The notes beneath the pieces are model-generated. The model had not been told where the DNA came from, did not search any database, and was given only the letters and a program-made list of their open reading frames with translations. Both the position numbers and the translations under genes were made by a program. A stretch of 64,000 bases of DNA from Flammulina velutipes. Lineage: Eukaryota > Basidiomycota > Agaricomycetes > Agaricales > Physalacriaceae. The stretch is from the NCBI GenBank assembly GCA_011800155.1, contig CM022368.1, forward strand, positions 2,790,001-2,854,000, read 5' to 3'. This document shows, piece after piece, positions 42,206 to 63,748 of this stretch (positions are counted from its first letter, which is position 1; every line of letters starts with the position of its first letter).

Positions 42206-42213
42206 GACGGGCG
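42206..42213 (+). repeat. Left target-site duplication of E1
   Basis: GACGGGCG; the same 8 bases occur at 45014-45021. One copy is enough to make the KDZ coding sequence continuous. Confidence 0.85.
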
Positions 42214-45013
42214 CACCCTATGACATAGACCTAACTAGTTATCCAGCCCTACTAATGGGGCCAAATAACTAGTTGCCAGCTCTTGTTAAGTAGGCCATTT
42301 TGGCAGGCTAATATGGCTGGCTGGCGGGCAGGGGGCGGGCTGGAATGGGGCGGGATGGGTCCCAAATATGGATAGGAATTGATGGGAGCATGTAGGGATT
42401 GATGGGCAGGGGGAGGGGGAGCAGGGGATGGGGAAATGTGGCCACACATAAATCCGGACCTAGGGATTGATGGGTACTGATGTCATTGATTGCCCAGGAG
42501 GATGGGGGATGGGGATAGGAATTGTGGCACCAGGAAAATCCGGACCTAGGGTTTGATGGGGGCAGGGGATGGGGGATGGGGCAGGGGAAATGTGGCCACA
42601 GGAAAATCCGGACCTAGGGATTGATGGGAACTGATGGGATTGATGGGAGAGGGGATGGGGGATGGGGGCAGGGGGATTGGGGGCAGGGGACAATTGTGGC
42701 ACCAGGATAAATACTGGGCTATTGCCAGGGTATGAGGAGGGTATGGGAGGGATGATTGTAGGTTGAAAAATAAAATTCTTTCTAACTATCAGAAACATGA
42801 ATGGGGATGTGGCAGCTACTGAAACCAATAATAAAACGATGTGTGGCGCATTTTTAATCGAGGAGCACATACCTCGGATCAACCTGGGGTTGTTTTAGAT
42901 GTCTTCCTATTGAAAAATGGATGTGTGCAGCACAAAGAACCATGTAAAAACACGAAGATTTGGCTGAGAAACAAGCAGAACATTATTGAAAATCCATCAA
43001 AAAGCACCAAAAAGGGAGCAGCACTTTGCCCTCGCTTGGGGGTGACCTGGAACAACTTGTAGGTCGTCCAGACACCTTTGGGGCATTGTATATGTCACTC
43101 AGTTAGGTCCCTAGGTCAACAGAACCCTTGGATATGATCAAAATGCCAAAAACCCGGACCACATAGGTTTGGGCCACACTATCAACTTGCCATGACCTGG
43201 GGACACCTTATATTCGAAGATATATGTATATAATGCTCTAATCATGAGTTAGATGAAGTCTGGAGTGTCAAAAATGCGGTCAAAACCTTGGATATACCCC
43301 AAATAATGTCCCCCAAGAAAGCACACACACCATCAACTTCCTCTGACCTCTGGGTCGTCCCAATGTGTTCTATTATCATTATAGAGGATGTATTAGCATC
43401 CCAGAGGTGTCCCCAGTGTGGCAAAATGCGAATAGAAATGGTACAATAATTTATATCCCCTCCTTCTACACCAAGAACTACCCCAACTATCACACATCTG
43501 AGTGGTGGACTATTGATTTTAACATCATACAATGTGTTGTTAGCTTCCCAGGATATGTCCCAGGTTGAACACCCTTCAATATAGAGCATGGACATTTGAG
43601 AATTAGTACAAAGATCATATCCTCACCATGTACCCAAGGGGTGTATCTTCGAGGTCTACCTATGACCTGGGCCCCAAGATATCATCTATATGATGTCAAA
43701 TGACTATTAGAACAGTCCTAAAGATGTAGATATGCGAACCAGTGGGTGTACTTGAGCAGGAAGGGTGAAGAAGGGTTCACCTATTATCATGAATATTCGC
43801 ATTTTGACATACTGGGAACACCTCTGGAGTGCTAATACATCATCTATAATGATAATAGAACACATTGGGACGATCCAGAGGTCAGAGGAAGTTGATGGTG
43901 TGTGTGCTTTCTTGGGGGACATTATTTGGGGTATATCCAAGGTTTTGACCGCATTTTTCACACTCCAGACTTCATCTAACTCATGATTAGAGCATTATAT
44001 ACATATATCTTCGAATATAAGGTGTCCCCAGGTCATGGCAAGTTGATAGTGTGGCCCAAACCTATGTGGTCCGGGTTTTTGGCATTTTGATCATATCCAA
44101 GGGTTCTGTTGACCTAGGGACCTAACTGAGTGACATATACAATGCCCCAAAGGTGTCTGGACGACCTACAAGTTGTTCCAGGTCACCCCCAAGCGAGGGC
44201 AAAGTGCTGCTCCCTTTTTGGTGCTTTTTGATGGATTTTCAATAATGTTCTGCTTGTTTCTCAGCCAAATCTTCGTGTTTTTACATGGTTCTTTGTGCTG
44301 CACACATCCATTTTTCAATAGGAAGACATCTAAAACAACCCCAGGTTGATCCGAGGTATGTGCTCCTCGATTAAAAATGCGCCACACATCGTTTTATTAT
44401 TGGTTTCAGTAGCTGCCACATCCCCATTCATGTTTCTGATAGTTAGAAAGAATTTTATTTTTCAACCTACAATCATCCCTCCCATACCCTCCTCATACCC
44501 TGGCAATAGCCCAGTATTTATCCTGGTGCCACAATTGTCCCCTGCCCCCAATCCCCCTGCCCCCATCCCCCATCCCCTCTCCCATCAATCCCATCAGTTC
44601 CCATCAATCCCTAGGTCCGGATTTTCCTGTGGCCACATTTCCCCTGCCCCCATCCCCATCCCCTGCCCCCATCAAACCCTAGGTCCGGATTTTCCTGGTG
44701 CCACAATTCCTATCCCCATCCCCCATCCTCCTGGGCAATCAATGACATCAGTACCCATCAATCCCTAGGTCCGGATTTATGTGTGGCCACATTTCCCCAT
44801 CCCCTGCTCCCCCTCCCCCTGCCCATCAATCCCTACATGCTCCCATCAATTCCTATCCATATTTGGGACCCATCCCGCCCCATTCCAGCCCGCCCCCTGC
44901 CCGCCAGCTAGCCATATTAGTCTGCCAAAATAGCCTACTTAACAAGAGCTGGCAACTAGTTATTTGGCCCCATTAGTAGGGCTGGATAACTAGTTAGGTC
45001 TATGTCATAGGTT
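42214..45013. mobile_element. Palindromic foldback element E1 (2800 bp)
   Basis: Arms 42214-~43436 and ~43794-45013 are inverted copies around a loop of about 357 bp. The tips are CACCCTATGACATAG on the left and, read inward from the right, AACCTATGACATAG. Subterminal AACTAGTT palindromes occur twice per arm. Each arm holds three to four diverged copies of a G-rich unit marked by ATCCGGACCTAGGG and GGATGGGG, then a unique-sequence section containing TGTGTGGCGCATTTTTAATC. No transposase frame. Open frames inside the arms recur only because the DNA is repeated. It interrupts the KDZ gene. Confidence 0.9.
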
Positions 45014-46544
45014 GACGGGCGACGGAGATTCTTGAGACGAAAATTGGCGTCCAACGCCAGAATCAAACGAAAACGATACCTACAAATAGTTAGTTGCTGT
45101 AGAGATGTCAAGAGAAGGGAGTTCACATACTGCTCCGTACTGGGCATCGACTCCCAGTTCTCCGGCAAATTGACGTTGGGGTGGGGGCACGCTGGGCAAA
45201 CTACCGCCAACTCGCCTGCAGCTGTTCCAGCAACTCCGTCTAGAAACGCACCCCGACCAGCACACTTAAGCATTTTCAGATGGGCAAACTGGCGGTTCAT
45301 GCGAAACAAGGCCTTCGAGCGGTCCTACAAATCAATTAGCTAAAAGTGGCAACATTGCTTGATATGAAGTCGTACCTTGGGAAGTCGAATACCCGTATTG
45401 TCCGTTCTCCTGACCAGTCCGTTATAGAATTCATGGTTGGAAAGCTGGCCCGTCGCAGAAAACATCTCGAACGTCTCAAGCGCACGAAAGGTGGCCCCGG
45501 ACTTTGGAAATCGAGATGTCGCCGGCATGACTTCAGAGCGGAGGAGTTGCGTGCGATTTGGTTGGCGTCGCTCACAGCCACAGAAATCTACATTGACCAG
45601 ATGGATGCCATTGTCGTGGATCATGGTGAACAGTCATGTGGATGGAATCGGGCGAATGCAGGGAAATCCAGCGTGGGGGCCTAGCTGAATGCGAAGCCCT
45701 AGCTCTCGCAAGGACATTGGCTTGTAGAATCCATTATCCCAGTGCTGATAACGCCTGTCAGTGATGTTGAAAAATAAGAAATAAAAAAAAGACGTACTTG
45801 AACGCGGTGGAATGGTAGGCGTCGGTGGCTCATGAGGATGCAACTTGCACATTCCATGAACGTTCTGAAACAATCTTCGCAGGTAAACACAGCATCACCC
45901 GACACACCGTCCATTCCGCCCTCCCCAAAGCGCTCACGACACCCACTGCACGTTGAACCAGTATGATCCCCTCGTCCTTCTAGACGGATGAATTCATCCA
46001 GGTATTCTTGGGGTCTGCCTTCTTGCATCCAGCAGAGGAGAGTTTGGTCCTGGAAGTGAAATAAGTTGTGTCTCTGAGTCGGGCACCATGAAGCAAGCTT
46101 ACCGAGTTTTTGTAACGGCGCTGCTTCTTGGGAAGTAGGGGAATAGCAACCATATCGGGTTGAGAAGGAGGAGGGACGACCTTTAAGCTGGGTCCATCGT
46201 CGACACGAGCAACTGCTTGAGGGATGGATGTTTGGAGACGTCGACGGTCCGCGGAGAGCCTTGAGGTTCTGGCCTCTAGCAAGCCATTGTCGTCGTCAGA
46301 GGAGTCGGCGCGTGAAACTCTACTGCGCTTCTTGCGTTTGGGCACCGTAACGGTATTGGAGCGCATTTTTGGATGTTGAGAGTAGGAGATTGACTCAACA
46401 GGCCCACGTGACCAAATGCGTGGTCACCCGCGCCGTAGATTCCGGGTCATGATACTAACATAATGCTCAAGAGTATTCAACACGATTTCAATACAGATTA
46501 CAAGATACATGAACAACGAAGCGCATCATACAAAATACATCGCC

Positions 46545-47308
46545 TCAGCTCAGCCCGTCATCCGATTCGTCCTCGTTATCCACACTGACATGCTGAGATG
46601 ACCCGCCCGGAACGCCGCTTTGCGCCTGCCTTTGAGACGTCAAAAAATACTCAACCTCGGCGTGTGTCCAGCATGGAATGAGGGTGAAATCGTCGCCAGC
46701 GGCCTTGGTCTGTTCACACATCCGAAGGGCTTGGGTGCTAATGCAATTTCAGTTGTGCGCTCAAGAAGCGACATAGAATTACTCACACTGACGAGAAAAC
46801 TTGACGAAAGCCACCTCCTTCGTACAAGAAGTAAGGTGTTGTGCTCGATTCAGAGGAGCCTTTCTTGGGGGAGCGCGCGCGGCATGACTGTGTCGAAGCA
46901 TAGGTGACTTTGGCGCTTTTTTTGGAAGGGGAAGGAAAAGGGGTGGCTGGCGTCGATATAAACGAAGCGTCGAGGTGAGGGCCTTGTTTTCGGGGTGAAG
47001 GTGTTGGTGTTTCTGTGGTGCGGTTGATATGTTTGTGCCTCAAGAGACAGATATCTCGCCACTTGGTCTGAGCGTCTGCATACAATTCAACGTGGGTGGG
47101 GATGGTCTCGTCTTTGGCGATATCAGCGATGTCTCTGAGCACAGTGTTAGCAGACGGAGATATAAACCGAACAGAAAACATACAAAGCAGTATAAATACC
47201 CTGCGCATTTCCATGGGATTTAATGTAGTATCTGGAAAAGTTCTGCGGCGCACGGCCAGTCTCCGAGGGCGCACAGAAAAACTGCGGGACGCAAGATGGG
47301 GGCTGCAT
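46545..47308 (-). CDS. Hypothetical protein next to KDZ gene
   Basis: ATG at 47308 (MQPPSCVPQFFCAPSETGR). A GTATGT...CTCAG intron joins YTAL to DIADIAKDETIPTHVELYAD. The Ser/Thr/Pro/Lys-rich middle carries TETPTPSPRKQGP and FPSPSKKSAKV. A second intron leads to TQALRMCEQTKAAGDD and an acidic end, with the stop at 46545-46547. Same strand as KDZ, about 180 bp upstream of its start. No domain recognised; low complexity suggests a disordered, possibly DNA-binding protein. Could be cargo or accessory protein of the KDZ element (inference from position). Confidence 0.55.
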
Positions 47309-47479
47309 GGAAATGGTGAGAGGCAAGGGCGCAACATTGAGAGGGAAGCAAACAAACACAGTAAGCCCACAGTGGTAGCGTTTAGAAGGCACAAAGGCCC
47401 AGGCCTTTCCTATCCGTTAAGCCGAAATGTGTTCCATTCACCGCGGCATACAAAAAAATTCTACAACGGATATGTACGT

Positions 47480-48522
47480 CTACAACTCCGGCGACTTGGT
47501 GCGCGCACACTCAGATTCATAGTCACGTAACAATGCCACAACACTGTCCATTTCCGCAATCTCCTCCGCTGACAAGGAGCCAAAGTCCTTGTTGGCTAAC
47601 TTTCCAAGAGTAACGTAGGAAGGCCAGGTGGAAGCCGACGTTGAAGCGGAAGCGACAGGAGCAGCCGTTCCCGTATTCGCCTCAGTCAGTTTCGGCTTTT
47701 TTAGAAAGGCCGGGCGAGGGCGCGCACGCTCACCATCTTCACGGAGGATGGTGATGTTGGGGTCCAGCAAGTTCCTTGGCTTCCATACAGCACCGCCGTC
47801 ACGACGGTACCGTAGCATGTCCACAGCCCACATCAACGAGGGCCACCAAAACCTCTGCACCCGAATGATAAGTATACTGTTGAAGGACCGATGCAAAATA
47901 AACATACCTTATGACGATCACTACAGCGCTGCTTGTACGTGTCGTCCGGCTCGTCAAGCATACGCATGGGTTTGAACTCGACCTCACATACTGTCTTGAA
48001 GTGTTTGCGAATTGTGCGCTCAGAGACGTAGGCACGTTGAGCTTCCACAACGGCGACAGCCTGCGTCTGAAGGAATGAGAACAGATAGTTCTTGTCCTTC
48101 GTCAGTCCCTGACAAGAGGGTCAGCGCTAAGAATGTGAAAGAAATAATAGATTTACCTCTGGACGCTTAGGCGTCGTCAGAAGAGTTTGACCAGGCAGGA
48201 GTTTTCGGCGCTTCGCCTTGGAAGGCCCCATGGCGATTTTTTTGTTGCGATACATCCGTGACGGCGTCGAACGACCAGCCTTGGAAAGAGTTCAGCCAAA
48301 AGATCGATGTCAATGAAAACGAACATACTGGGGTCGCTTTGGGAGTAGAAGGAACAACGGGACCAGGGGACGACGGCGTCAAACGACCAACCTTGGAAAG
48401 AGATCAGTCCGAAGAAACGATGCCAATAAAAACGAACATACTGGGGTCGCTTTGGGAGTAGAAGGGACGACGGCTCCAAGGGAGGTCGCCCGGCGGCTGG
48501 TTTTTTTCGATACACGACCCAT
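47480..48522 (-). CDS. Hypothetical basic protein with duplicated exon-intron module
   Basis: ATG at 48522 (MGRVSKKTSRRATSLG). A 112-bp unit is repeated in tandem at 48260-48371 and 48372-48478. Each copy holds an intron of about 49 bp (GTATG...CCAAG), and each ends an exon in PSTPKATP, so the protein carries that octapeptide twice. The rest reads MGPSKAKRRKLLPGQTLLT, VEAQRAYVSERTIRKHFK and the C-terminal FWWPSLMWAVDMLRYRRDGG, ending ESECARTKSPEL. Basic N-terminus, acidic end. Function unknown. The same strand and spacing as the neighbouring KDZ genes suggest a shared mobile unit. Confidence 0.6.
48260..48478 (-). repeat. Tandem 112-bp exon-intron duplication
   Basis: Two direct copies with period 112 bp (48260 and 48372), sharing GACGGCGTC, CCTTGGAAAGAG and CGAACATACTGGGGTCGC. 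Each contains one complete short intron plus flanking coding sequence. Confidence 0.8.
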
Positions 48523-48822
48523 TTACAGCGCGGACAGTCTGAGGTGTCTCAGGATGAATTATGGGTCGTGCTCTTGAGAATCCCTGCTGTACAGCTGTAC
48601 AGTTGTCCTAGACTCCGACACTGTTGTGCCGAGGGCCCGAAGGCAAGCGCCGGGGTGTTACTGTAGCAGAAAGAAGATGACGACCGGCTTTCACAAGGAT
48701 CCCGTGGTGTGGCGCATGACAAGGGAAAATGCAATTTATTTTCCGGACCGATAATTAGGCGTGCTCGCGAGAGACATGAACGAAGAGAGAGGCCAGCTGA
48801 AGCGACGCTCCGGGGAAAGACG
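48523..48822. other. Short intergenic, nothing recognised
   Basis: Contains one GTGTGGCGCA at about 48708, a decamer that recurs in several elements of the window. No coding support. Confidence 0.5.
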
Positions 48823-49506
48823 TTAATCCGCGCTCTGCTGGAAGAGCAACCTGCGAGCCTGCCACACCTTCACCAGCTTGCCCTTCTCGGCCCATTGGCG
48901 AATATCTTCGACATACGTCAAAATATGTGCCATCCTGTCGCGAATCGCTGCGCCCTCCTGCCACAGCACATCACGAATACCAACTTCTTGCCTGATCTTG
49001 TCGAGGCCGTCCTCCACGTCCTTGAGATTGAGCGTCAGCCCGGTCTCAATGTCGGCCAAACCCATGCAGCCATCTTCGTGTTCCCTACAGTGATATTCCT
49101 CGACAATCTCCTTCGCATAGTCCTTGAGGTTGCTATCATGCGACTGACCACGGAGGATGCTGTCTATCTTGCGCAGGCGACGGATGCAACGTTGAACGAG
49201 ACGGGTGTCGATAAATCTGCAGGTATAAAGCCTTAGTGAGGTAGGTGGCGGCACAGCTCGTAGACGTACTTTTCTGTGGGAGCCTGAGGGCCTTGGTGAC
49301 GGCGGCGACGGTCAAGAGGGATAGCCACCTTTTCGTCATATTTTTTGCGCATGTTAATTAATTGCTGCTCGCGATTACTACCCAAGGAGTCAGGACACAG
49401 ATGCATCGTCTCGATAGGGAACATACTCATGATACCACGACATCCTAGATGCTCTCCTGGCCTCACGACGCTCGGGCGACGAGTTATATAGCCGTTTGCG
49501 CGGCAT
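48823..49506 (-). CDS. Small basic, helical protein of unknown function
   Basis: ATG at 49506 (MPRKRLYNSSPERREARRAS). A splice with GTATGT...GGGTAG gives SWYHDNREQQLINMRKKYDE, and a second intron (GTACGT...CTGCAG) joins PTEK to FIDTRLVQRCIRRLRK. The rest is charged and probably helical, ending KVWQARRLLFQQSAD. The N-terminal PRKRLY...RREARRASR pattern looks like the basic part of a bZIP-like helix, and I have the impression that similar small genes sit near KDZ transposons in Agaricomycetes; a search is needed. No catalytic motif. Confidence 0.6.
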
Positions 49507-49947
49507 TGAAGAAAACCTGTAGAATGATATGCGTTAGCAAAAGAGACCAGTAGCAATAAATTATAGCACACCCGAATGATTGACGCAACAGTGAGATGGA
49601 AGTCTATGGACGAGACGACGCCAGTAGCAATGGTATGAGTCCAAGTTAGGAATGCATGCTAGATTTGGTTGAGGCTTCCAGATCATTGGACATTCATTGG
49701 ACACATACCGCGCGATGTTCCCTGCCGCCAAAGAAATGGGTGTGCATCGAAGGAGAAGTACCACGAGAGGCTGTGGGCGATTTTTTGGGGCGTCAGGCAA
49801 AGGTGGAAAGGTAAGAGGTAGCCAACAAGGGTCACCACAGATGGCCTGTACGTCGGTCCGGGAATTTGTTCATTGGACATCAATTGGACATTAACATTTC
49901 AACCCTCGGACTGAGTCTGGTAAGCAGGATGAACACAGGAATCCTCA
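49507..49947. other. Spacer with CATTGGACAT direct repeats
   Basis: CATTGGACA occurs at about 49684, 49694, 49870 and, as AATTGGACAT, at 49881. No coding support. Lies between divergent small genes. Confidence 0.45.
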
Positions 49948-50708
49948 ATGTATAGTACAAATATAATATCCCGATGCTTTTTAAGCTATCCCGGTGTGGT
50001 TGACGAATACGACAGCCACTTTGAATTTCGCAGGTGGACGGGACTGACCTGTTGCCATTTCGGGATTGCGGCAAATCCCGCGGTTCGGTTCGGTGCTTTC
50101 ATAATCTTGCCCAGTGAAATTTTCAACCACCATCTCGCCAGTATGCCAATGTAAGTGTAGCCCGTGGGCTGAACGTCGTCCATTCTGATGTTTTTCCAGG
50201 TTTTCACCCATTCGAGAAGTCTTCCTGGCTCAATTTCTGCTCAAGTTCAGCACGGCCAAAGGGAGCAATCAGGGACCGATTGTTGTGGGGCAAGCCCTGC
50301 ATGTCTACCTGCAAGTTTACCCGTGGTGGGTTCCTGTTGATGAAGAGGTCGACCCCAACAAGGAGTACGACGAAGCCACGCTGGATCCGGCCGTCGCCAG
50401 TCGCAAGGAAGCAACGGTTCACCAGCTTCGTGAGGTGCGCCACACTGTCCTTAGACGTTCATGGATGCTGATGTTCTACGCAGTGGATCGGGCATTATTT
50501 TGACTACCATCATGTCAGGCAAGACATCTGCCGCCGCATTGCCCTTTTCGAGTCGACGTTCCGCACCACATTTTGCCCCATGAATCACAGCGCGGACGGG
50601 AGCATGAGCCACACCGATAATCCCTACGTTGTACAGCCTGCACTTGGGCTGAGTGCAGAACTGATACTAAACATGGGTGTGGCGCACGACGGCGCCAGCG
50701 CCATATAG
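49948..50708 (+). CDS. Hypothetical protein fragment beside gypsy element
   Basis: Three exons join. The first is about 49948-50152 (FEFRRWTGLTCCHFGIAANP), followed by a GTAAGT...TTCCAG intron. The second is 50202-~50430 (VFLAQFLLKFSTAKGSNQG ... LHVYLQVYPWWVPVDEEVDP), followed by a second intron. The third is ~50527-50708 (ICRRIALFESTFRTTFCPMN ... GLSAELILNMGVAHDGASAI, stop 50706-50708). Codon pattern and splice signals are good, but no family is recognised and the N-terminus may be incomplete. Confidence 0.45.
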
Positions 50709-51630
50709 GTCGGAACGTGTGAACGCGCCATCCGCGGCGCGTCCGCATTAGGAACATATGGCGCAGCACTTCACACGGCACAAGCATGGACGTTTCAGAA
50801 CACGGAAGCTACCGAACTAATCGATGGATTGCAACAATCGATAACGAGAAGATCCAGATCGATGGGAAGAGATTACACCAAGGCTGTGCGCCATGCATGG
50901 CGCCCAGGCACCTTCGGGATTCTGGATACCAAAGCCGACAGGAATGGAGAGAATTACCACCCTCGAAGAGTCATATCGCGAGGTGGTCTGACTCGACGCG
51001 ACGGAACGCCAATCACATCACGGACTCAAACCCCGGATCATTGCACGATCGCTCGATCAGGGTACATGACGCAGGCATCGAGAGGCCTAAGCGTCGAACT
51101 AGACGGAAGAGAAAGCCGATAGCGTACAGTATAAATACTGTAGCATGTCGTAGAAACATATATATAGAATTATCACCCCACAATATCAACACAGAAGCCC
51201 CTTGCGACTGTCGAGAGACTTTTGGAACCTATACTTTCGCGCACGCGTTAGTACTTCGACGAACGCGTACTTGGAAGCGCCACCGTCATCTGCGACAGCT
51301 CGCTGCCCGACTTCTTCACCTACCAAGGTCTGCGACCTCGGTGCGCCAGAACAAGAGCAGGAATCCGCCGAGTAGTCCCCTCAACATCACAACGAACTCA
51401 GACTCGTTAAGAGATCTATATCTGGAGCCCACCACGAGGGGATACTACAACAAGGATCCCATTTGTTCTTCCGAACACTTTCCTTGTCGTCACGAGACAA
51501 AGGAGTCTAGGAATCAACCGAGGGTCGGACTCTGGCTGGAGGAAAGAGGCCGAGAGAGAGCAGCGGTAGATTCGCGAAGAAAGTTCGTACAACCGAAGAC
51601 CCCGAGGACAGAGGAGAGCCAGTAAATCCG
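50709..51630 (+). other. Presumed 5' leader/LTR zone of gypsy element 2
   Basis: TATA-like TATAAATA at about 51131-51138 and ATATATATAG at about 51161. A 279-codon frame at 50786-51625 has no gag-like content and is probably fortuitous. No matching downstream LTR was found, so its borders are unknown. Confidence 0.35.
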
Positions 51631-53964
51631 TTGACTCCGGTACAAGAAGAATTGGACATCGACTTTACTGCTCTCACCTTACAACCCTTCGACTTCACGG
51701 TACCCACAACCGCGAGACCACCTGGAACGACAATTCCACCCACAAACCCATTCCTGGCGCATCAAGCCGGAAACCAAGGCCGAGGAAACAACCCCGCGCC
51801 TACCAATACACCTACCAACCCACCAACCAACAATACACCTACACCCAACATGTCTAACAAAACAATGCCGGGAAGGGGAAACAAAAGCGCCCCCTCCTTT
51901 ACGGAAAATCCGAAAGACTTGATGGACTACCTCGAAGACGTGAAGAACCTATGTGTGGAACATGGGAAGAAGGACGACGCGGACTGGATCCAGTACGCCC
52001 TGTACTATCTACCAGCAGAGGCACGAGAGTACTGGCGCCGTATCCCAGAAGCAAAGGATGTGACGTCCGCGCTAGGAGTCATAACCAAGGCAACATGGGA
52101 CGCCTTCGTGCAGGCGGTGCTCAACAAGTACCCAGGAGCAAGGGAGAAAGGACGATACGAATTATCGGACTTACAGGACGCATCGGATCAGCGTCACCTG
52201 GCGCCACCTCAGGACCTACACACCCTAGGAGAATATACCCGGACATTCGAAAGGATTGGTTTAGCCCTCAAAGAAGAGAGTGCGGTTTCGGACCCCGAGC
52301 TCGCTCGCCTGTTCGAGCGCGGCTTGGGAGAAGCTTTGAAAGGAATGGTTAAGAGGCGTTTGGAAATCAAATTCCCAGACCGCCCTCCAACTAGGCCTCA
52401 CAAGCTCGCCGACCTCATATCAGCATCTGAGTTCTGTCTCACGGGAACCTCTACATTTATCGCCAACCAGAAAGCAGGCGTAAAAGAACATAGTGTCAAA
52501 ATCGAAGGATTCGAACCAGCGGCTGTGGTACAAGCAGTACTGCAAGCGCTAACTCTACAAGGAGTATCGACGGGACAGAACAAGAATGGACCAAGTAACG
52601 CTCAAGGACCTCAATCACAAAGGAACCCACAAGCGAGCGGCGGAAATGTGAAATCCACGAGTACGCAAAGGTTCGAGGAATCGACAAGGCGAAATCAGTT
52701 TCAACCTAGATGTTTCTGCGGAGGAACCGAATGCAGGAGCTGGAACGTTTGTCCAGTACATCGGAAAGCGGTCGAAGACAAGGTAGTCTTGATCTCTCCA
52801 GGTGGAAGGACCACGTTATGGGACGGATCCAGGGACTTCCCTAGGGGAGAAGGATCGCTGTACGACCGTATCGTGCAGTGGAACCAGAAAAATCCGCATC
52901 TCAAACCAACGGGACAACCAGAAGGGAAAGCTTTCCTACTGGAAGTGACTCGACCAGGAGGAGGAGGATCGAGGATACCGCCTTCCTCCACGTTTCTCAG
53001 CAACGAGATTATCACCGAACAACCTGAACAGTTTTGGAACACTATGTTGAACCTTAACCAGAAGGAAAACACGGGGCCGGGAAACAACTACAAAGGACCG
53101 CCAATGCCGCCAGGCAAACGGATGGCATTCCGAGGAGTAGAGATACCGAAGACAACGTGGAAGAAACCTCCGTTTGGGGTGGACCCCAAGGCGGCTCACG
53201 ACGCAGTGCCCGGACCCAACCTTCCACCAGGATACGTTTTACCTAAACAGGCACAGCAGACGAAGCCTACTGTCACCGCCGCACCATCAGCACCCAAGCC
53301 ACAACCGGTTCAGCAGAAAGGAAATCCGCAGATCGGATCAAGGAACCCTTTTCGGGCCGACAATCAACAATATCGTACCCAATTAGGACCGGGCCTGAAC
53401 GAAAAAGAATCTAGCGATAGGGTCTTTGACACTATACTAGGAGGATCGTCCACTTTGTCGAACAAAGACTTACTGGCCGTAGCACCGGAGATTAGGAAAC
53501 ACATCAAGGAAGTGGTATCAAACCAAAGGATATTACAGGATGTGGCGCAAACGGGAATGCTCGCCATCGAGGACGATGACGAGGAACCACTCTCAGAAGA
53601 AAACTTGGAATCCGTGGAAGCGGGGGAATTGATCGACACATTCTATCAATCACTCGCGGACCAGGGGGTGATCGTCGGCGCAGAAAGTCTGGCTTTACGC
53701 GCGATCACTCCGGTGATCGATCACAAGTACGAGGTGGAAGCAATCTTGGACGAAGGGGCGCAACTAGTGGCAATGTCAGAAGAAGTGTGGGAGCACGTCG
53801 GACTGCCATTGGACACCTCAACACGAATTTCAGTCCAGTCTGCCAACAAAGGTGTTGAGTCTGCACTGGGGTTTGCCGAAACGTACCTTTCACTATCGGA
53901 AACGACCTTACAATATTCTTGCAAGTCCACGTTCTACGAGGAGTCGCCTACGACATTCTACTAG
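51631..53964 (+). pseudogene. Ty3/gypsy Gag plus aspartic protease, frameshifted near its end
   Basis: A 777-codon frame. Pro/Thr/Asn-rich N-terminus; capsid (retrotransposon gag) domain at residues about 90-260 with IQYALYYLPAEAREYWRRIP and FERGLGEALKGMVKRRLEIK. A Cys/His cluster CFCGGTECRSWNVCPVH (about 52711) replaces the usual CCHC knuckle. The retropepsin region reads VEAILDEGAQLVAMSEEVW, with Glu where Ser/Thr is usual in DxG. At about 53912-53920 a single-base loss shifts the frame: the expected LQVHVLRGVAYDILLGRPF continues in the next frame (53919-54170), so the fused Gag-Pol cannot be made from this copy. Confidence 0.82.
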
Positions 53965-54166
53965 GACGACCTTTCGGCGTACTTACCGAAAGTGTTACAA
54001 GGAACTACATTGACGGAAAACAAACCATTACTCTCAGGGACCCTAACTCGGAACGGACAATAGCAATTCCGACGCATAAGAAAGGCGTACCGAGATTCTC
54101 TGCACCACGGGAACACGAATTGGACTCGCCACATATTCATACGGCTCGCGCCAACATACACGACCA

Positions 54167-57100
54167 ATGATGATTATGCAAGAGGATGAACAAACAGGGC
54201 TTGTTATAACGGTTACACACAGGAACGGCATTGGATCTAGGACACCTCACATCGGAAAGCTTCTGGAAGGACCACAAACCTTCGAAGATTGGGAAAGTAT
54301 ACCAGGATACGGAATATCTATTTCAGGATTTACAGGGGAAGTATTGGAAGAGGCCGTACAGACGGATGGCGCAGCAACATTGGCGCAGAAGGCATTCGTT
54401 CTGGCTGCGGCGCTCTACGCGGACACTTGCACCCCGACCAAAAACGACTCATCGCGTCCATTGGGAGTTCCAAAGGCACGAAGTCATGGAAGGGGTGGAA
54501 TGGCTGTGATTTTGGATACGAAAGCGCCGGTCGCTGTGTTTGCAGGAAAGAAATACAAAAAGGTCGCGAACAGGATCAAACCAGTCGCAACCACTCTACC
54601 AGAGGACTTCAGGATAGTCAGGAACATCGTGGGGGACCCTCTGGAAACCTTACCCGTACTACCCGTGCGCCCGCCACACTTCGAGCCACGGGGTCGGTAC
54701 ACTTTGGAAAGGAAAAAGATCATCGACGACTTGCATCCCGAGGGATTTCTCTGGCCAGAAGAGAGGAAGTTGATGCATCCACCCTATGCTATAGGGATAA
54801 CACGTTATAGGCCTGTAGTGGCAGGGCAAAACAACGCGTTGTCCACTGTAGCTCTAAATGGCTGTCTGGCTGGCTGGCTGGCTGGCCAGGGTATATTGGG
54901 GCAGGCTGGAATGGGGCGGGATGGGTCCCAAATATGGATAGGGATTGATGGGAGCATGTAGGGATTGATGGGGAGGGGGAGGGGAGCAGGGGATGGGGAA
55001 ATGTGGCCACACATAAATCCGGACCTAGGGATTGATGGGTACTGATGTCATTGATTGACCAGGGGGATGGGGGATGGGGATAGCAATTGTGGCACCAGGA
55101 AAATCCGGACCTAGGGTTTGATGGGAGCAGGGGATGGGGGATGGGGGCAGGGGAAATGTGGCCACAGGAAAATCCGGACCTAGGGATTGATGGGAACTGA
55201 TGGGATTGATGGGGGAGGGGATGGGGGATGGGGCAGGGGGATTGGGGGCAGGGAACAATTGTGGCACCAGGATAAATACTGGGCTATTGCCAGGGTATGA
55301 GGAGGGTATGGGAGGGATGATTGTAGGTTGAAAAATAAAATTCTTTCTAACTATCAGAAACATGAATGGGGATGTGGCAGCTACTGAAACCAACAATAAA
55401 ACGATGTGTGGCGCATTTTTAATCGAGGAGCACATACCTCGGATTGACCTGGGGTTGGTCTAGATGTCTTCCTATTGAAAAATGAATGTGTGCAGCACAA
55501 AGAACCATGTAAAAACACGAAGATTTGGCTGAGAAACAAGCAGAACATTATTGAAAATCCATCAAAAAGCACCAAAAAGGGAGCAGCACTTTGCCCTCGC
55601 TTGGGGGTGACCTGGAACCACTTGTAGGTCGTCCAGACACCTTTGGGGCATTGTATATGTCACTCAGTTAGGTCCCCAGGTCAACAGAACCCTTGGATAT
55701 GATCAAAATGCCAAAAACCCGGACCACACAGCTTTGGGCCACACTATCAACTTGCCATGACCTGGGGACACCTTATATTCGAAGATATATGTATATAATG
55801 CTCTAATCATGAGTTAGATGAAGTCTGGAGTGTGAAAAATGCGGTCAAAACCTTGGATATACCCCAAATAATGTCCCCCAAGAAAGCACACACACCATCA
55901 ACTTCCTCTGACCTCTGGATCGTCCCAATGTGTTCTATTATCATTATAGATGATGTATTAGCACTCCAGAGGTGTTCCCAGTATGTCAAAATGCGAATAT
56001 TCATGATAATAGGTGAACCCTTCTTCACCCTTCCTGCTCAAGTACACCCACTGGTTCGCATATCTACATCTTTAGGACTGTTCTAATAGTCATTTGACAT
56101 CATATAGATGATATCTTGGGGCCCAGGTCATAGGTAGACCTCGAAGATACACCCCTTGGGTACATGGTGAGGATATGATCTTTGTACTAATTCTCAAATG
56201 TCCATGCTCTATATTGAAGGGTGTTCAACCTGGGACATATCCTGGGAAGCTAACAACACATTGTATGATGTTAAAATCAATAGTCCACCACTCAGATGTG
56301 TGATAGTTGGGGTAGTTCTTGGTGTAGAAGGAGGGGATATAAATTATTGTACCATTTCTATTCGCATTTTGCCACACTGGGGACACCTCTGGGATGCTAA
56401 TACATCCTCTATAATGATAATAGAACACATTGGGACGACCCAGAGGTCAGAGGAAGTTGATGGTGTGTGTGCTTTCTTGGGGGACATTATTTGGGGTATA
56501 TCCAAGGTTTTGACCGCATTTTTGACACTCCAGACTTCATCTAACTCATGATTAGAGCATTATATACATATATCTTCGAATATAAGGTGTCCCCAGGTCA
56601 TGGCAAGTTGATAGTGTGGCCCAAAGCTGTGTGGTCCGGGTTTTTGGCATTTTGATCATATCCAAGGGTTCTGTTGACCTGGGGACCTAACTGAGTGACA
56701 TATACAATGCCCCAAAGGTGTCTGGACGACCTACAAGTGGTTCCAGGTCACCCCCAAGCGAGGGCAAAGTGCTGCTCCCTTTTTGGTGCTTTTTGATGGA
56801 TTTTCAATAATGTTCTGCTTGTTTCTCAGCCAAATCTTCGTGTTTTTACATGGTTCTTTGTGCTGCACACATTCATTTTTCAATAGGAAGACATCTAGAC
56901 CAACCCCAGGTCAATCCGAGGTATGTGCTCCTCGATTAAAAATGCGCCACACATCGTTTTATTATTGGTTTCAGTAGCTGCCACATCCCCATTCATGTTT
57001 CTGATAGTTAGAAAGAATTTTATTTTTCAACCTACAATCATCCCTCCCATACCCTCCTCATACCCTGGCAATAGCCCAGTATTTATCCTGGTGCCACAAT

Positions 57101-60100
57101 TGTTCCCTGCCCCCAATCCCCCTGCCCCATCCCCCATCCCCTCCCCATCAATCCCATTAGTTCCCATCAATCCCTAGGTCCGGATTTTCCTGTGGCCACA
57201 TTTCCCCTGCCCCCATCCCCCATTCCCTGCTCCCATCAAACCCTAGGTCCGGATTTTCCTGGTGCCACAATTGCTATCCCCATCCCCCATCCCCCTGGTC
57301 AATCAATGACATCAGTACCCATCAATCCCTAGGTCCGGATTTATGTGTGGCCACATTTCCCCATCCCCTGCTCCCCCTCCCCCTCCCCATCAATCCCTAC
57401 ATGCTCCCATCAATCCCTATCCATATTTGGGACCCATCCCGCCCCATTCCAGCCCGCCCCAATATACCCTGGCCAGCCAGCCAGCCAGCCAGACAGCCAT
57501 TTAGAGCTACAGTGGACAACGCGTTGTTTTGCCCTGCCACTACAGGCCTATAACGTGTTATCCCTATAGCATAGGGTGATGCATCACTTTATGGCGCTAC
57601 ATGAAAAAGGATTCGCTTGGGACGAAACGGAAAAAGGACACTTTCGGGAGGACTTCTTCCCGCCGGTGAACATGGGAATAACAGAACATATTCCTTGGGT
57701 CAATAGGAACATGCCGATACCACCTGGGATATACGACGAAGTCATTCGCATTGTTAGGGAGAAGGTCGCGTCCGGAGCGTACGAACCATCAAGCTCTTCC
57801 TACCGATCGCGCTGGTTCACGGTACTCAAGAAAGACGGGAAATCCTTGCGGATTGTGCACGATCTACAACCTCTGAACGCTGTCACTATACGTGATAGTG
57901 GAATGTTACCATTTGTCGAGACGCTGGCGGAGTCATTCGCTGGGCGCGCATGTTATAGAGTTCTGGATCTCTTTGTGGCGTTCGATCAAAGGGGACTGGC
58001 GCAGCCGTCTAGGGATTATACGACTTTCCAGACGCCGTTGGGCACCTTTCGACTCACGAAGCTACCAATGGGATGGACGAATAGTGTATCCATTTTACAT
58101 GGGGACGTAACCTACGCGCTACAGGACGAAATACCGGAATTCACAATACCTTTTATGGATGACGCAGGTATTCGGGGACCACCTACAAGATACGAAACCA
58201 AGGACGGAGGATACGAGACGATTGAAGGAAACGAGGGGATACGGAGATTCGTTTGGGAGCATTTTCAGGCGCTCGGACGGATTGTCCAGAGGATCTGGTA
58301 CATTGGGTGTACTTGGAGCGGGAAAAAGGCTTTCCTTTGCGTTCCAGAAGCCATGCTTGTTGGACACAAGTGTACCTACGCGGGAAGGGAGCCCGACGAG
58401 ACGAAGATGGAGAAAGTGAGGAACTGGGGACCATGCAGGGACCTCACGGATGTACGAGCATTCATGGGGACCGTGGGCCTCATGAGGGTGTTCATATGGA
58501 ACTTCGCGGGTTTATCTAGGCCTCTAGTGGACTTGACGAAGAAGGATGCCGAATTCTATTGGGGACCAGAACAACAGGAGGCGCAGGACGAGCTGAAAGC
58601 CGCAATGCTAAGTTCACCTGCATTGCGCCCCTTGGACTACCACTCGGGCGCACCCATAATTCTATGCGTAGACTCGAGCGTTATCGTGATTGGCTACGCT
58701 CTCTTCCAGGAAGACGAAGAGGACGCACGCTTGCGATACCCAAACCGCTTTGGATCTATGGCATTGAACCCCAGGGAAACCAACTACAGTCAGCCAAAAC
58801 TGGAGTTGTACGGACTCTACAGGGCTCTGAAAGCGGTATCCATGTACATCATCGGAGCTAGGAATCTGGTCGTAGAAGTGGACGCCACAGCTATTAAGGG
58901 AATGATCAACAATCCTGATCTGAACCCGAACGCCACAATAAACCGATGGGTCGCAGGCGTTCTGCTATTTACCTTCAAACTGGTACATGTTCCGGGGATT
59001 TGTCACGGGGTAGATGGTCTATCTCGTCGGCGCCCATTTCCTGGAGAAGAGTTGGAGGAGGACGACGAAGATTGGGTGGATAGGCATTACGGTTTCCTTC
59101 AGGTAATAGCGTCGGCGCACGTGGAACCTGAGGCAACCGTGTGTGAAGTACTGTTGAGGGAGCTGGTGGAAGTCCCGGACTACTCTTACAACGAGTTAAA
59201 TCCGAACATCCAGCCAGACGCCACACCGGAAATTCCCAGGTCGAAGAAACATATGGCGCAGGATGAGCGCCTTGTGCAAATTCTGCGTTTCTTGGATAAA
59301 TTGGAAATACCGGAGAGGATGGGAGAGAAGGAGAGGAAGAGGTTCATCAAGTACGCAACGGGTTTCTTTCGAAGGGAAAGTGACCTGTGGCGCAGGATGG
59401 AAAACGGGAAACATCAGCTAGTGGTCAAGCCTCCAGCACGACTAGGGATTTTACGATCGGCGCACGACAGACTGGGACACAAGGGAACGTTCTCTGTCCG
59501 CCATACCGTGCAGATTCGATTCTGGTGGCCGGGATTGTTAAACGACATCAAGTGGTATCTATCGACATGTCACGAGTGTCAACTGCGACGCACGCAGCAC
59601 TGGCATATTCCACCGGTCGTCGCGGAACCTGCACCTTTGTTTGCGAAAGCATATATTGACACCTTTTTCATGCCACCTTCGAACAGATTCAAATACTTTG
59701 TACACGCAAGGTGTTCTCTAACGGCGTACCCCGAATTCCGGATGCTCAGGAAGGAGAACGAAAACACTCTAGCAGCTTTCATATTCGAGGAGCTCATATG
59801 TCGATGGGGATCGCTTAGGGAAATCGTCACGGATAATGGGCAAGCGTTTATTGCTGCGATGGACCGACTATCTCGACAATACGGCGTTAAGCACATCAGG
59901 ATTTCTGGCTACAACTCTCAGGCAAACGGTATCATCGAAAACAGGCATTACGACGTTCGAGAGGGTCTATTCAAATTAGCCAAAGGGAACGAATCCAAGT
60001 GGTCAGAAGGGACGTTCGCCATGATGTGGGCAGAGAGAGTTACTATCTCTCGTGTTATGCACATGAGCCCCTACCGAGCTGCGACAGGCGCGGAACCTCT

Positions 60101-60579
60101 GCTACCTCTGGACTTTGTGCAAGCAACCTGGTTAACTACGCCCTTCAGTGGTATAGTTTCCCACGGTGATGTCATCGTGCAAAGAGCCATGGATTTATGG
60201 AACAGGGAGAAGGAGATGGAAAAGCTGAAAGAAGACGTTTGGAAGTCTAGAGTCGACGCTGCAAAGCGTTGGGAAAAGGAACACCAAAACCGAGTTGTGG
60301 ATTTCGATTTCAAACGTGGCGATCTCGTACTACTGGAAGGGATTTCAAGACAAGATGCAAGCCCGCTACTTTGGACCCCTTGTGGTACTATTCAGGATGA
60401 AAGGAGGCGCCTACCAGCTTTGCGAACTATCTGGCACAAGACTCGCTAACACGGTAGCGGCGCGACGTGTCATGAAATATCTGGCGCGGGAGCGGATATC
60501 CTTGCCTTGGTACTACACGGGAGCTTTGACTGATGAGGAGACGAAGCGCTTAATGGAGAGCGACGAAAAAGGGGAGTGA
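54167..60579 (+). pseudogene. Ty3/gypsy Pol (RT, RNase H, integrase), split by E2 and frameshifted
   Basis: A spacer segment at 54167-54779 is followed by element E2, and coding resumes at 57578-57586 exactly where it stopped (KLM-HH-FMALHEKG). Reverse transcriptase: WFTVLKKDGKSLRIVHDLQP, LPMGWTNSVS, and the catalytic box FMDDAGIRGPP. RNase H: ILCVDSSVIVIGYALF. Integrase: zinc H-H-C-C (AHDRLGHKG ... CHECQLRRT), then core D in YIDTFF, D in VTDNGQAF and E in NGIIENRHYD. Near 60336-60345 another shift moves the frame: DKMQARYFGPLVVLF and the C-terminus (to 60579) lie in the neighbouring frame. The copy is therefore dead, though otherwise well preserved. Confidence 0.85.
54780..57577. mobile_element. 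Palindromic foldback element E2 (2798 bp)
   Basis: Flanked by GATGCATC at 54772-54779 and 57578-57585. Tips CACCCTATGCTATAG (left) and the same read inward from the right. The outer about 130 bp of the two arms differ at a single base (54901 region versus 57456 region). Subterminal perfect palindrome ACAACGCGTTGT at about 54830 and 57525. Loop about 55999-56356, reverse-complemented relative to E1 and E3. The core is shared with E1, but the outer about 120 bp are unrelated apart from the extreme tip. No transposase. Confidence 0.9.
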
Positions 60580-61091
60580 GAATGGGAGTTTTTCAACAAG
60601 TTGGGGGGAGCGCCATTTCTGGCGCACGAGGATAAAATCTGGAAAATCAAGATCAAGACAAAATTTTTGTTGGGGGAAGGACTATCGACTCTCAAATCGA
60701 TATAATAACCCACATGTGTACCTACAATACAGTGGCACGTCATTCGTTTAAACATCGGGACCGAATTACGACCAGGCGCCACTACCACCGAACAATCTAC
60801 CTAACACAACCTACCTGCGAAAGACACCAACTGGCGATCGATCGAACCACCCATGAACGACATGGACCTACACCCATCACCATACGCGGAAAACACAGGA
60901 TATCTTATGGAGGTCGCGTTGATGCGCATTGTATTAATGCAAGTACGAAAGACCCCAAAATTTGTGATTCTAAGAAGCATTCTTAGTGATAGAACGAACC
61001 TATGAGTACGAGAACCTCTAGTTACAGACCGAAACGCATATACGATACAGTGTAAGGAGTTTCCGTGGTACGACCGGAAAACTCCTAAGAT
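60580..61091 (+). other. Presumed 3' end/LTR zone of gypsy element 2
   Basis: Purine-rich TTGGGGGGAGCG (about 60600) and TTGGGGGAAGG (about 60673) are candidate polypurine tracts directly after pol. Downstream sequence is non-coding and is interrupted at 61092 by E3; it resumes at 63742. Confidence 0.4.
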
Positions 61092-63740
61092 CACCCTAGG
61101 AAGTAGGTCTAACTAGATATGGTCTTGTTATTAGAGGGGGTCGTATTTAAATGTGCACCTCTAGTAAGAGGTCGTTTAAGGTGAGGTCAACAACTAGTTG
61201 TGCCCACACTCCGGGGCTCCGGGGCAGGTAGCACTGGCTGGCCTATATAGGAATGGGAGCATTGATGATATTGATGGGGCCAGATGATGGGGAGCAGGAA
61301 ATGGGGGAAATGTGGCACCAGGAAAATCCGGACCTAGGGATTAATCAGAATTGATGGGGATCATTGACAGGGGATGGGGAATAGGGATAGGAAATGTGGC
61401 ACCAGGAAAATCCGGACCTAGGGATTGATGGGATTGATGGATTGATGAGCAGATAGGATGGGGGATGGGGGATGGGGGATTGATAGCAGGGGGGAAATGT
61501 GGCACCAGAATAAATACTGGGCTATTGCTAGGGTATGAGGAGGGTATGGGAGGGGTGATTGTAGATTGAAAAATAAAATTCTTTCTAACTATCAGAAACA
61601 TGAATGGGGATGTGGCAGCTACTGAAACCAATAATAAAACGATGTGTGGCGCATTTTTAATCGAGGAGCACATACCTCGGATCAACCTGGGGTTGTTCTA
61701 GATGTCTTCCTATTGAAAAATGGATGTGTGCAGCATAAAGAACCATGTAAAAACACGAAGATTTGGCTGAGAAACAAGCAGAACATTATTGAAAATCCAT
61801 CAAAAAGCACCAAAAAGGGAGCAGCACTTTGCCCTCGCTTGGGGGTGACCTGGAACCACTTGTAGGTCGTCCAGACACCTTTGGGGCATTGTATATGTCA
61901 CTCAGTTAGGTCCCCAGGTCAACAGAACCCTTGGATATGATCAAAATGCCAAAAACCCGGACCACACAGCTTTGGGCCACACTATCAACTTGCCCTGACC
62001 TGGGGACACCTTATATTCGAAGATATATGTATATAATGCTCTAATCATGAGTTAGATGAAGTCTGGAGTGTCAAAAATGCGGTCAAAACCTTGGATATAC
62101 CCCAAATAATGTCCCCCAAGAAAGCACACATACCATCAACTTCTCCTGACCTCTGGATCGTCCCAATGTGTTCTATTATCATTATAGATGATGTATTAGC
62201 ACCCCAGAGGTTCCCCCAGTGTGTCAAAATGCGAATATAAATGATACAATAATTTATATCCTCTCCTTCTACACCAAGAACCACCTCAACTATCACACAT
62301 CTGAGTGGTGGACTATTGATTTTAACATCATACAATGTGTTTTTGGCCTCCCAGAATATGTCCCAGGTTGAACACCCTTCAATATAGAGCATGGACATTT
62401 GAGAATTAGTACAAAGATCATATCCTCACCATGTACCAAAGGGGTGTATCTTCGAGGTCTACCTATGACCTGGGCCCCAAGATATCATCTATATGATGTT
62501 AAATGACTATTAGAACAGTCCTAAAGATGTAAATATGCGAACTAGTGGGTGTACTTGAGGAGGAAGGGTGAATAAGGGTTCACCTAGTATCATGAATGTT
62601 CGCATTTTGACACACTGGGGGGACCTCTAGGATGTTAATACATCATCTATAATGATAATAGAACACATTGGGACGATCCAGAGGTCAGGAGAAGTTGATG
62701 GTATGTGTGCTTTCTTGGGGGACATTATTTGGGGTATATCCAAGGTTTTGACCGCATTTTTCACACTCCAGACTTCATCTAACTCATGATTAGAGCATTA
62801 TATACATATATCTTCGAATATAAGGTGTCCCCAGGTCATGGCAAGTTGATAGTGTGGCCCAAAGCTGTGTGGTCCGGGTTTTTGGCATTTTGATCATATC
62901 CAAGGGTTCTGTTGACCTGGGGACCTAACTGAGTGACATATACAATGCCCCAAAGGTGTCTGGACGACCTACAAGTGGTTCCAGGTCACCCCCAAGCGAG
63001 GGCAAAGTGCTGCTCCCTTTTTGGTGCTTTTTGATGGATTTTCAATAATGTTCTGCTTGTTTCTCAGCCAAATCTTCGTGTTTTTACATGGTTCTTTATG
63101 CTGCACACATCCATTTTTCAATAGGAAGACATCTAGAACAACCCCAGGTTGATCCGAGGTATGTGCTCCTCGATTAAAAATGCGCCACACATCGTTTTAT
63201 TATTGGTTTCAGTAGCTGCCACATCCCCATTCATGTTTCTGATAGTTAGAAAGAATTTTATTTTTCAATCTACAATCACCCCTCCCATACCCTCCTCATA
63301 CCCTAGCAATAGCCCAGTATTTATTCTGGTGCCACATTTCCCCCCTGCTATCAATCCCCATCCCCCATCCCCCATCCTATCTGCTCATCAATCCATCAAT
63401 CCCATCAATCCCTAGGTCCGGATTTTCCTGGTGCCACATTTCCTATCCCTATTCCCCATCCCCTGTCAATGATCCCCATCAATTCTGATTAATCCCTAGG
63501 TCCGGATTTTCCTGGTGCCACATTTCCCCCATTTCCTGCTCCCCATCATCTGGCCCCATCAATATCATCAATGCTCCCATTCCTATATAGGCCAGCTAGT
63601 GCTACCTGCCCCGGAGCCCCGGAGTGTGGGCACAACTAGTTGTTGACCTCACCTTAAACGACCTCTTACTAGAGGTGCACATTTAAATACGACCCCCTCT
63701 AATAACAAGACCATATCTAGTTAGACCTACTTCCTAGGGT
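61092..63740. mobile_element. Palindromic foldback element E3 (2649 bp)
   Basis: Flanked by CTAAGAT at 61085-61091 and 63742-63748; the eighth base is C on one side and G on the other. Tips CACCCTAGGAAGTAG on both arms. The outer about 160 bp match between arms with one difference seen (ACTGGCTGG versus ACTAGCTGG) and contain the perfect palindrome ACAACTAGTTGT. Loop about 62237-62597, same orientation as E1. The core is diverged by a few per cent from E1/E2, and the G-rich tandem unit is present in fewer copies (two marked by ATCCGGACCTAGGG). Confidence 0.9.
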
Positions 63741-63748
63741 GCTAAGAT

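Follow-up and report, generated by a model that had tools for sequence, protein, structure and literature searches.

What are the three long palindromes that lie between positions 42206 and 63748 of a 64,000-nucleotide stretch of the Flammulina velutipes genome (assembly GCA_011800155.1, contig CM022368.1, positions 2,790,001 to 2,854,000; hereafter the window), and which enzyme moves them? We confirm that all three, named E1, E2 and E3, are real transposable elements. Very probably they are non-autonomous DNA transposons of the KDZ superfamily, copies of a single family of the foldback type, with a palindromic body through which recombination can shuffle the ends. This genome is rich in KDZ transposons, whose ends and non-autonomous partners are little described in searchable open papers. 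For these transposons the results provide the sequences of their ends, the length of their target duplication, a motif that is a candidate for binding, and a family of partners.

Structure and insertion sites of the palindromes

E1 (2801 bp, 42214-45014), E2 (2799 bp, 54780-57578) and E3 (2650 bp, 61092-63741) are each built of two inverted arms around a loop of 340-341 bp. The arms measure 1230, 1229 and 1155 bp, respectively, and are 98-99% complementary; inverted repeats cover about 87-88% of the elements' length, a structure of the foldback type. In E1, a left arm of tip type t1 (42214-43443, forward strand; CACCCTATGACATAGACC) leads to a 341-bp loop (43444-43784, forward), the source of the marker that we counted genome-wide, and to a right arm (43785-45014, reverse), with ACGGGCG duplicated on either side (42207-42213 and 45015-45021). 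E2 is bounded by ATGCATC (54773-54779 and 57579-57585) and comprises a left arm of type t2 (54780-56008, forward; CACCCTATGCTATAGGGA), a loop reversed relative to that of E1 (56009-56349, reverse) and a right arm (56350-57578, reverse). For E3, copies of CTAAGAT (61085-61091 and 63742-63748) enclose a left arm of type t5 (61092-62246, forward; CACCCTAGGAAGTAGG), a loop (62247-62586, forward) and a right arm (62587-63741, reverse). The E1 and E2 loops are identical, in opposite orientation, and the E3 loop is 96% identical to that of E1. All three elements open with CACCCTA; E2 and E3 close with TAGGGTG, and E1 with TAGGTTG.

An initial annotation of the window had described three palindromes here, all beginning with CACCCTA and encoding nothing recognizable, and this description stands. 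E1 holds ten open reading frames (ORFs) of at least 60 amino acids, four of which look like mirror copies of the other six; a Pfam scan of those six gave nothing above the cut-off (best E-value 0.088), a result that covers E1 alone. Rfam likewise gave no match in E1 at E-values up to 1, and we rejected the presence of a known RNA there. Degenerate repeats spaced 138-164 bp occupy the inner arm and loop of E1, most, not all, of them outscoring shuffles, and closer to the tip there is a repeat at 154-bp spacing.

E2 is hosted by a Gypsy-type pol reading frame with RNase H, integrase and reverse transcriptase matches (57586-60449, forward strand, in an ORF starting at 57570). A genome search with the left flank of E2 gave 20 matches: E2 itself, 17 full-length matches and the two halves of one copy interrupted elsewhere. 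Alignment of empty sites had been proposed in the initial annotation. In all five uninterrupted Gypsy copies read, the E2 site is intact and carries a single ATGCATC; E2 is therefore exactly 2799 bp long, with a 7-bp duplication. E1, to judge from its flanks, appears to interrupt a KDZ gene. An ORF with a match to KDZ transposase (PF18758, 5.1e-36; 41173-41937, reverse strand) lies on one side, and an ORF with no Pfam match of its own (44956-45309) on the other. At all five loci read, KDZ genes related to this one (71-80% identity to the left flank) can be aligned through the insertion point, with 82-132 of the 200 joined bases identical.

A search of the 38 Mb genome for the loop marker (32 bases, up to three mismatches) gave 102 hits, 51 on each strand, and none for the reversed control. 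The palindrome DNA that we studied, all from this one genome, consists of 24 of these 102 copies, chosen mostly by likeness to E1, and of an array on C8 described below. End types and duplications were tabulated for 21 of the 24, leaving out A2, L025 and the second element of L028, for which two true tips were not both found. A perfect 7-bp duplication surrounds 17 of the 21, and the lack of duplications at other copies, which the initial annotation had named as grounds against its own proposal, is confined to four. Among the 17, a G precedes the repeat in six, including E1 and E2, where it imitates an eighth base, and a C follows in five, so that an 8-bp rule fails for 11 or 12. These flanking bases and the empty E2 site lead us to reject a duplication of 8 bp: from the 7-8 bp first claimed, the lower figure holds and the upper does not. 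The argument from eight bases to a hAT or Zisupton enzyme fails with it, since the duplication is 7 bp, and Zisupton was set aside on that count. No strong target motif emerges from 19 duplications, two of them taken from the KDZ elements A3 and A4 introduced below.

Among the 113 tips listed, drawn from listings one of which holds 100 of 154, 38 pairs lie less than 3.5 kb apart, and 33 of these hold one of the 100 loops listed. Half of those 100 loops have another within 20 kb (about 10 expected under uniform placement), and 21 have one of the listed KDZ matches no more than 10 kb away (about 5 expected). The region C1:2.83-2.99 Mb is dense in palindromes, with KDZ and Gypsy elements, and is possibly a centromere or a heterochromatic block. 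In three interrupted or truncated copies (L023, L028 and L032), the breaks nearly coincide, near E1 body position 943-952.

Ends shared with KDZ transposons

Does the genome contain elements with the same ends and a transposase of their own, as the initial annotation had advised looking for? We scored 150 of 159 KDZ candidates and obtained 166 matches in about 89 separate places. Eight long tip pairs (8.6-12.9 kb), whose ends are of the same sort as those of the palindromes, enclose matches above the cut-off. Three have long terminal inverted repeats (TIRs), 99.7-99.8% identical: A1 (C1:2880950-2890943; 993 bp), A3 (C9:2469367-2479671; 1119 bp; duplication CAGTTTT) and A4, which contains a nested palindrome (C5:1980223-1993125; 1127 bp; TTTAATC). 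In A5 (C11:131227-141172; CAACCTC) the TIRs agree at 571 of 572 positions over the part read, and in A6 (C1:4315128-4325158; CTCGTCA) at 559 of 559. The others are A7 (C9:1229823-1239853; GTCCAAC), A8 (C9:1258475-1268506; GTTTATA) and A9 (C11:116496-125119), whose duplication, judged by eye, has one mismatch. Six of the eight (A3 to A8) thus carry a perfect duplication of 7 bp, the same length as that of the palindromes, and the early suggestion of a non-autonomous hitchhiker on a KDZ-type enzyme gains support.

In A1 and A3, a CxC2 cysteine cluster stands beside the KDZ match, together with a second gene on the opposite strand that has no convincing Pfam name. This second gene is alike in A3 and A4 (L037:1159-4736, reverse; L040:5537-9126, forward), again with no Pfam family above the cut-off. 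A6, A7 and A8, each about 10,031 bp long, score equally for KDZ and differ in their 7-bp duplications, which suggests recent movement. Three further candidates were rejected as KDZ elements: A2 (C13:192229), seemingly a 10 kb element, is a palindrome split by an insert of about 7.2 kb; the long pair at C5:224576 extends into a neighbouring palindrome; and that at C5:172548 has unlike tips and encloses none of the loops or KDZ matches listed.

We compared palindrome tips with those of five KDZ elements. Type t2 matches A1 at 76 of 82 positions, t1 matches A5 at 53 of 61, t3 matches A3 at 99 of 120 and t9 matches A6 at 105 of 116, each being the best of the five; these four types therefore share their termini with KDZ elements, as expected of non-autonomous partners. 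The similarity is confined to the outer 60-130 bp or so. A subterminal motif, TGTGGC[GA]C, is also common to both kinds of element. In six arms (the left arms of E1 to E3 and the TIRs of A1, A3 and A4) it occurs 18 times pointing inward and never outward, at 1.0-3.6 per kb versus 0.12-0.31 inside the KDZ elements and elsewhere in the window; A5 and A6 add three inward occurrences and no outward one. In the left arm of E1 (42523-42849, forward strand) it stands at arm positions 310, 482 and 629 (window positions 42523, 42695 and 42842), always inward. TGTGGCGCAC and the AACNNGTT tip repeats are candidate binding sequences for the CxC2 region.

The palindrome probably borrows KDZ enzymes, since several of its end types look like the ends of different KDZ transposons. 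We infer that these KDZ elements are active and that their transposases may move the palindromes in trans. KDZ elements of this genome, with their transposase, CxC2 and unnamed second gene, would supply an enzyme that recognizes the CACCCTA tips and the repeated subterminal motif, cuts out the entire palindrome and reinserts it at a new site, duplicating 7 bp there.

Probable exchange of ends among copies, and alternative explanations

How can one palindrome bear the ends of several transposons? The body is alike across the copies read, and the ends fall into at least eight types. The near-identical bodies of E1 and E2 switch sharply into different ends. Trees and arm comparisons were based on 22 of the 24 copies (A2 and the second element of L028 left out, L025 included with a false left tip). 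On the tree of the 22 bodies, 17 like-ended elements of eight types require nine changes of tip type, the minimum being seven, and two supported pairs join unlike tips: L017 (t1) with L020 (t6; support 100/99) and L026 (t4) with L029 (t3; 97/93). Likeness of arms within an element has a median of 0.980 and a mean of 0.970, as against medians of 0.954-0.958 between elements, where same-side and opposite-side arms are about equally alike. Among the 21 of 24 loop hits that could be used, a perfect duplication is present in 16 of 17 like-ended elements versus one of four unlike-ended ones (Fisher p 0.012). The one exception among the latter, L031, has unlike tips yet a perfect duplication, and is our sole candidate for a hybrid product that subsequently transposed. 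Exchange between copies thus appears to let palindromes swap their ends.

An array on C8, at about 986.4-1002.7 kb (986370-1002739; L057, L058 and L069-L072), is consistent with such exchange. Five elements alternate there with a segment of about 761 bp, two copies of which, read whole, measure 761 and 762 bp and are 99.2% identical, the other two having been read at their ends only; one frame of the segment is mostly open, with two stops. The order is X (t6b/t6b), spacer, t9/t6b, spacer, t9/t9, inverted spacer, t6b/t6b, spacer, Y (t9/t9). The first unit has t6b ends and the duplication CACGGAC; the second begins with a t9 end after GAGGTGG and finishes with a t6b end before CACGGAC; the third has t9 at both ends and the fourth t6b at both, with the segment between them inverted. 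In the last unit the closing tip is of type t9 and GAGGTGG comes after it, as we had predicted in writing before these letters were read, the stretch having already been retrieved; units 3 and 4 were explained post hoc. A single chain of hybrids was dropped as an explanation, the spacer between units 3 and 4 being inverted. What fits the sequence is two insertions 761 bp apart, unequal exchange leading to five elements, and one inversion through the arms of units 3 and 4. From this origin, it would follow that exchange between palindromes plausibly yields hybrids with unlike ends, and that inversion can pair like ends again. The array also makes the tandem amplification of a short segment readable.

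We may also hypothesize that tips diverged fast within element lineages and that ends were never exchanged between copies. In its favour, some tip types are close variants (t3 and t3b), the incongruence between tips and bodies lies merely two changes above the minimum, and nine of the 19 inner branches of the body tree are open. However, the sharp passage from near-identical bodies to different ends in E1 and E2 argues against it, as do the unlike-ended copies and the C8 array, and we regard it as unlikely.

If ends are exchanged, crossing-over between the bodies of different copies would create hybrids with two kinds of ends, and inversion between the arms of neighbouring copies would re-pair like ends; the body could thereby pass to new KDZ families. 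Since the copies have their inverted body in common, exchange and array flips would keep re-pairing ends. The palindromic body may then be a device for changing sponsors, by which one parasite lineage can be moved in turn by several distinct KDZ transposases, a tentative proposal to which we give somewhat less than an even chance. If it is true, the palindrome lineage can outnumber its KDZ sponsors and outlive each of them. The palindromes offer a case of a single parasite lineage bearing the ends of several transposon families, and they document in readable form the recombination of repeated inverted DNA in a fungus.

A number of observations weigh against the reading of the palindromes as end-shuffling KDZ partners. 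The element's own second arm is its nearest relative in 10 of 22 cases for the inner arm and in 14 of 22 for each of two outer parts. Copies were chosen by likeness to E1, and the search for tip pairs tolerated one mismatch in each tip and gave preference to pairs whose duplications agreed. The comparison with five KDZ elements, which left out t6b, t7 and t8, gave no clear tip match for t4 or t6 and a weak one for t5 (22 of 28 with A5); the t4 pattern gives pairs of 2.8-2.9 kb and one unpaired tip, nothing longer. The inner body has no BLASTN match in A1, A3 or A4 outside the nested palindrome. TGTGGC[GA]C was picked after the sequences had been seen, and E1 to E3 are not independent. A1 has no target duplication, the KDZ matches of A6 to A8 contain an in-frame stop, and KDZ matches come exon by exon. 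Eight of about 89 KDZ places are tied to such tips, ends having been sought for these alone, and E1's own KDZ host shows no such tips within the window.

Other explanations account less well for the data. The palindrome might be retained as a long-hairpin transcript that feeds RNA interference for or against KDZ elements: arms of about 1.2 kb at 98-99% identity would indeed form a near-perfect hairpin. The body, however, shows no homology by BLASTN to the genes of A1, A3 or A4, which makes this role highly improbable. Non-autonomous hAT elements, including those of a 7-bp 'hAT7' type, must also be considered, as the genome contains 32 hAT matches and rust hAT7 families are reported to make 7-bp duplications (PMC12730594). 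By eye, none of the 32 hAT dimerization matches falls inside a long tip pair, whereas eight such pairs hold KDZ matches. Neither an 8-bp duplication nor a hAT transposase accompanies these ends; we reject a hAT partner and give this origin hardly any credence. Least credible of all are assembly artefacts, for, hard as long palindromes are to assemble, the loop is present 102 times and in both orientations, the 7-bp duplications of 17 sites all differ, and the empty sites are exact, all of which speaks against them.

Related systems and neighbouring sequence

By structure the palindromes are foldback elements, and by their ends and duplication they are KDZ. Kyakuja, a KDZ group of Laccaria, is reported to have 7-bp duplications and CA..TG termini; Kyakuja-1_LB and -2_LB reportedly have no TIRs and carry a TET/JBP gene (PMC12730594). 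The elements described here likewise combine a KDZ transposase with 7-bp duplications and CA..TG termini. They differ in having TIRs, of 993-1127 bp in A1, A3 and A4 and of at least about 560 bp in A5 and A6, and in that no TET/JBP match to Pfam was obtained among the ten ORFs of A1 and seven of A3 scanned. In Cryptococcus neoformans, KDZ1 to KDZ3 are mobile elements of about 9-11 kb with TIRs of 139-241 bp and CxC1, making duplications of 8 bp (KDZ1) or 4-8 bp (KDZ2 and KDZ3; PMC12810828). Mobile KDZ elements with TIRs are common to both fungi, with longer TIRs, CxC2 and 7 bp in F. velutipes; a palindromic non-autonomous form was not found in the accessible text of the Cryptococcus account (PMC12810828). 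CxC2 is also reported to precede intact KDZ elements in Pleurotus (PMC7641404).

The closest analogue using another enzyme is Galileo of Drosophila. This foldback-like member of the P superfamily has a P-type transposase and a preferred target, GTATTAC, and shares with our elements long TIRs, mostly 7-bp duplications, better-conserved ends and ectopic recombination between copies (PMC4168063). It differs in its enzyme, P-type rather than KDZ, and in its preferred target, in contrast to the 19 duplications reported above. Tetris of Drosophila virilis resembles the palindromes in foldback organization and differs in host, the comparison being one of organization and host rather than of enzyme or arm structure (PMC4079207). 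Searches of the open literature, which was covered in part, gave no description of palindromic KDZ partners, nor of an Agaricomycete family that is palindromic over nearly its whole length, an absence that the initial annotation had also noted.

Two further features of the window deserve mention. Between E1 and E2, positions 48260-48483 contain adjacent direct repeat copies of about 112 bp that are 87% identical. The first part of the window (1-27200) resembles ordinary gene space, with Kelch, DEAD-box helicase, CAS/CSE1, short-chain dehydrogenase and P450 matches.

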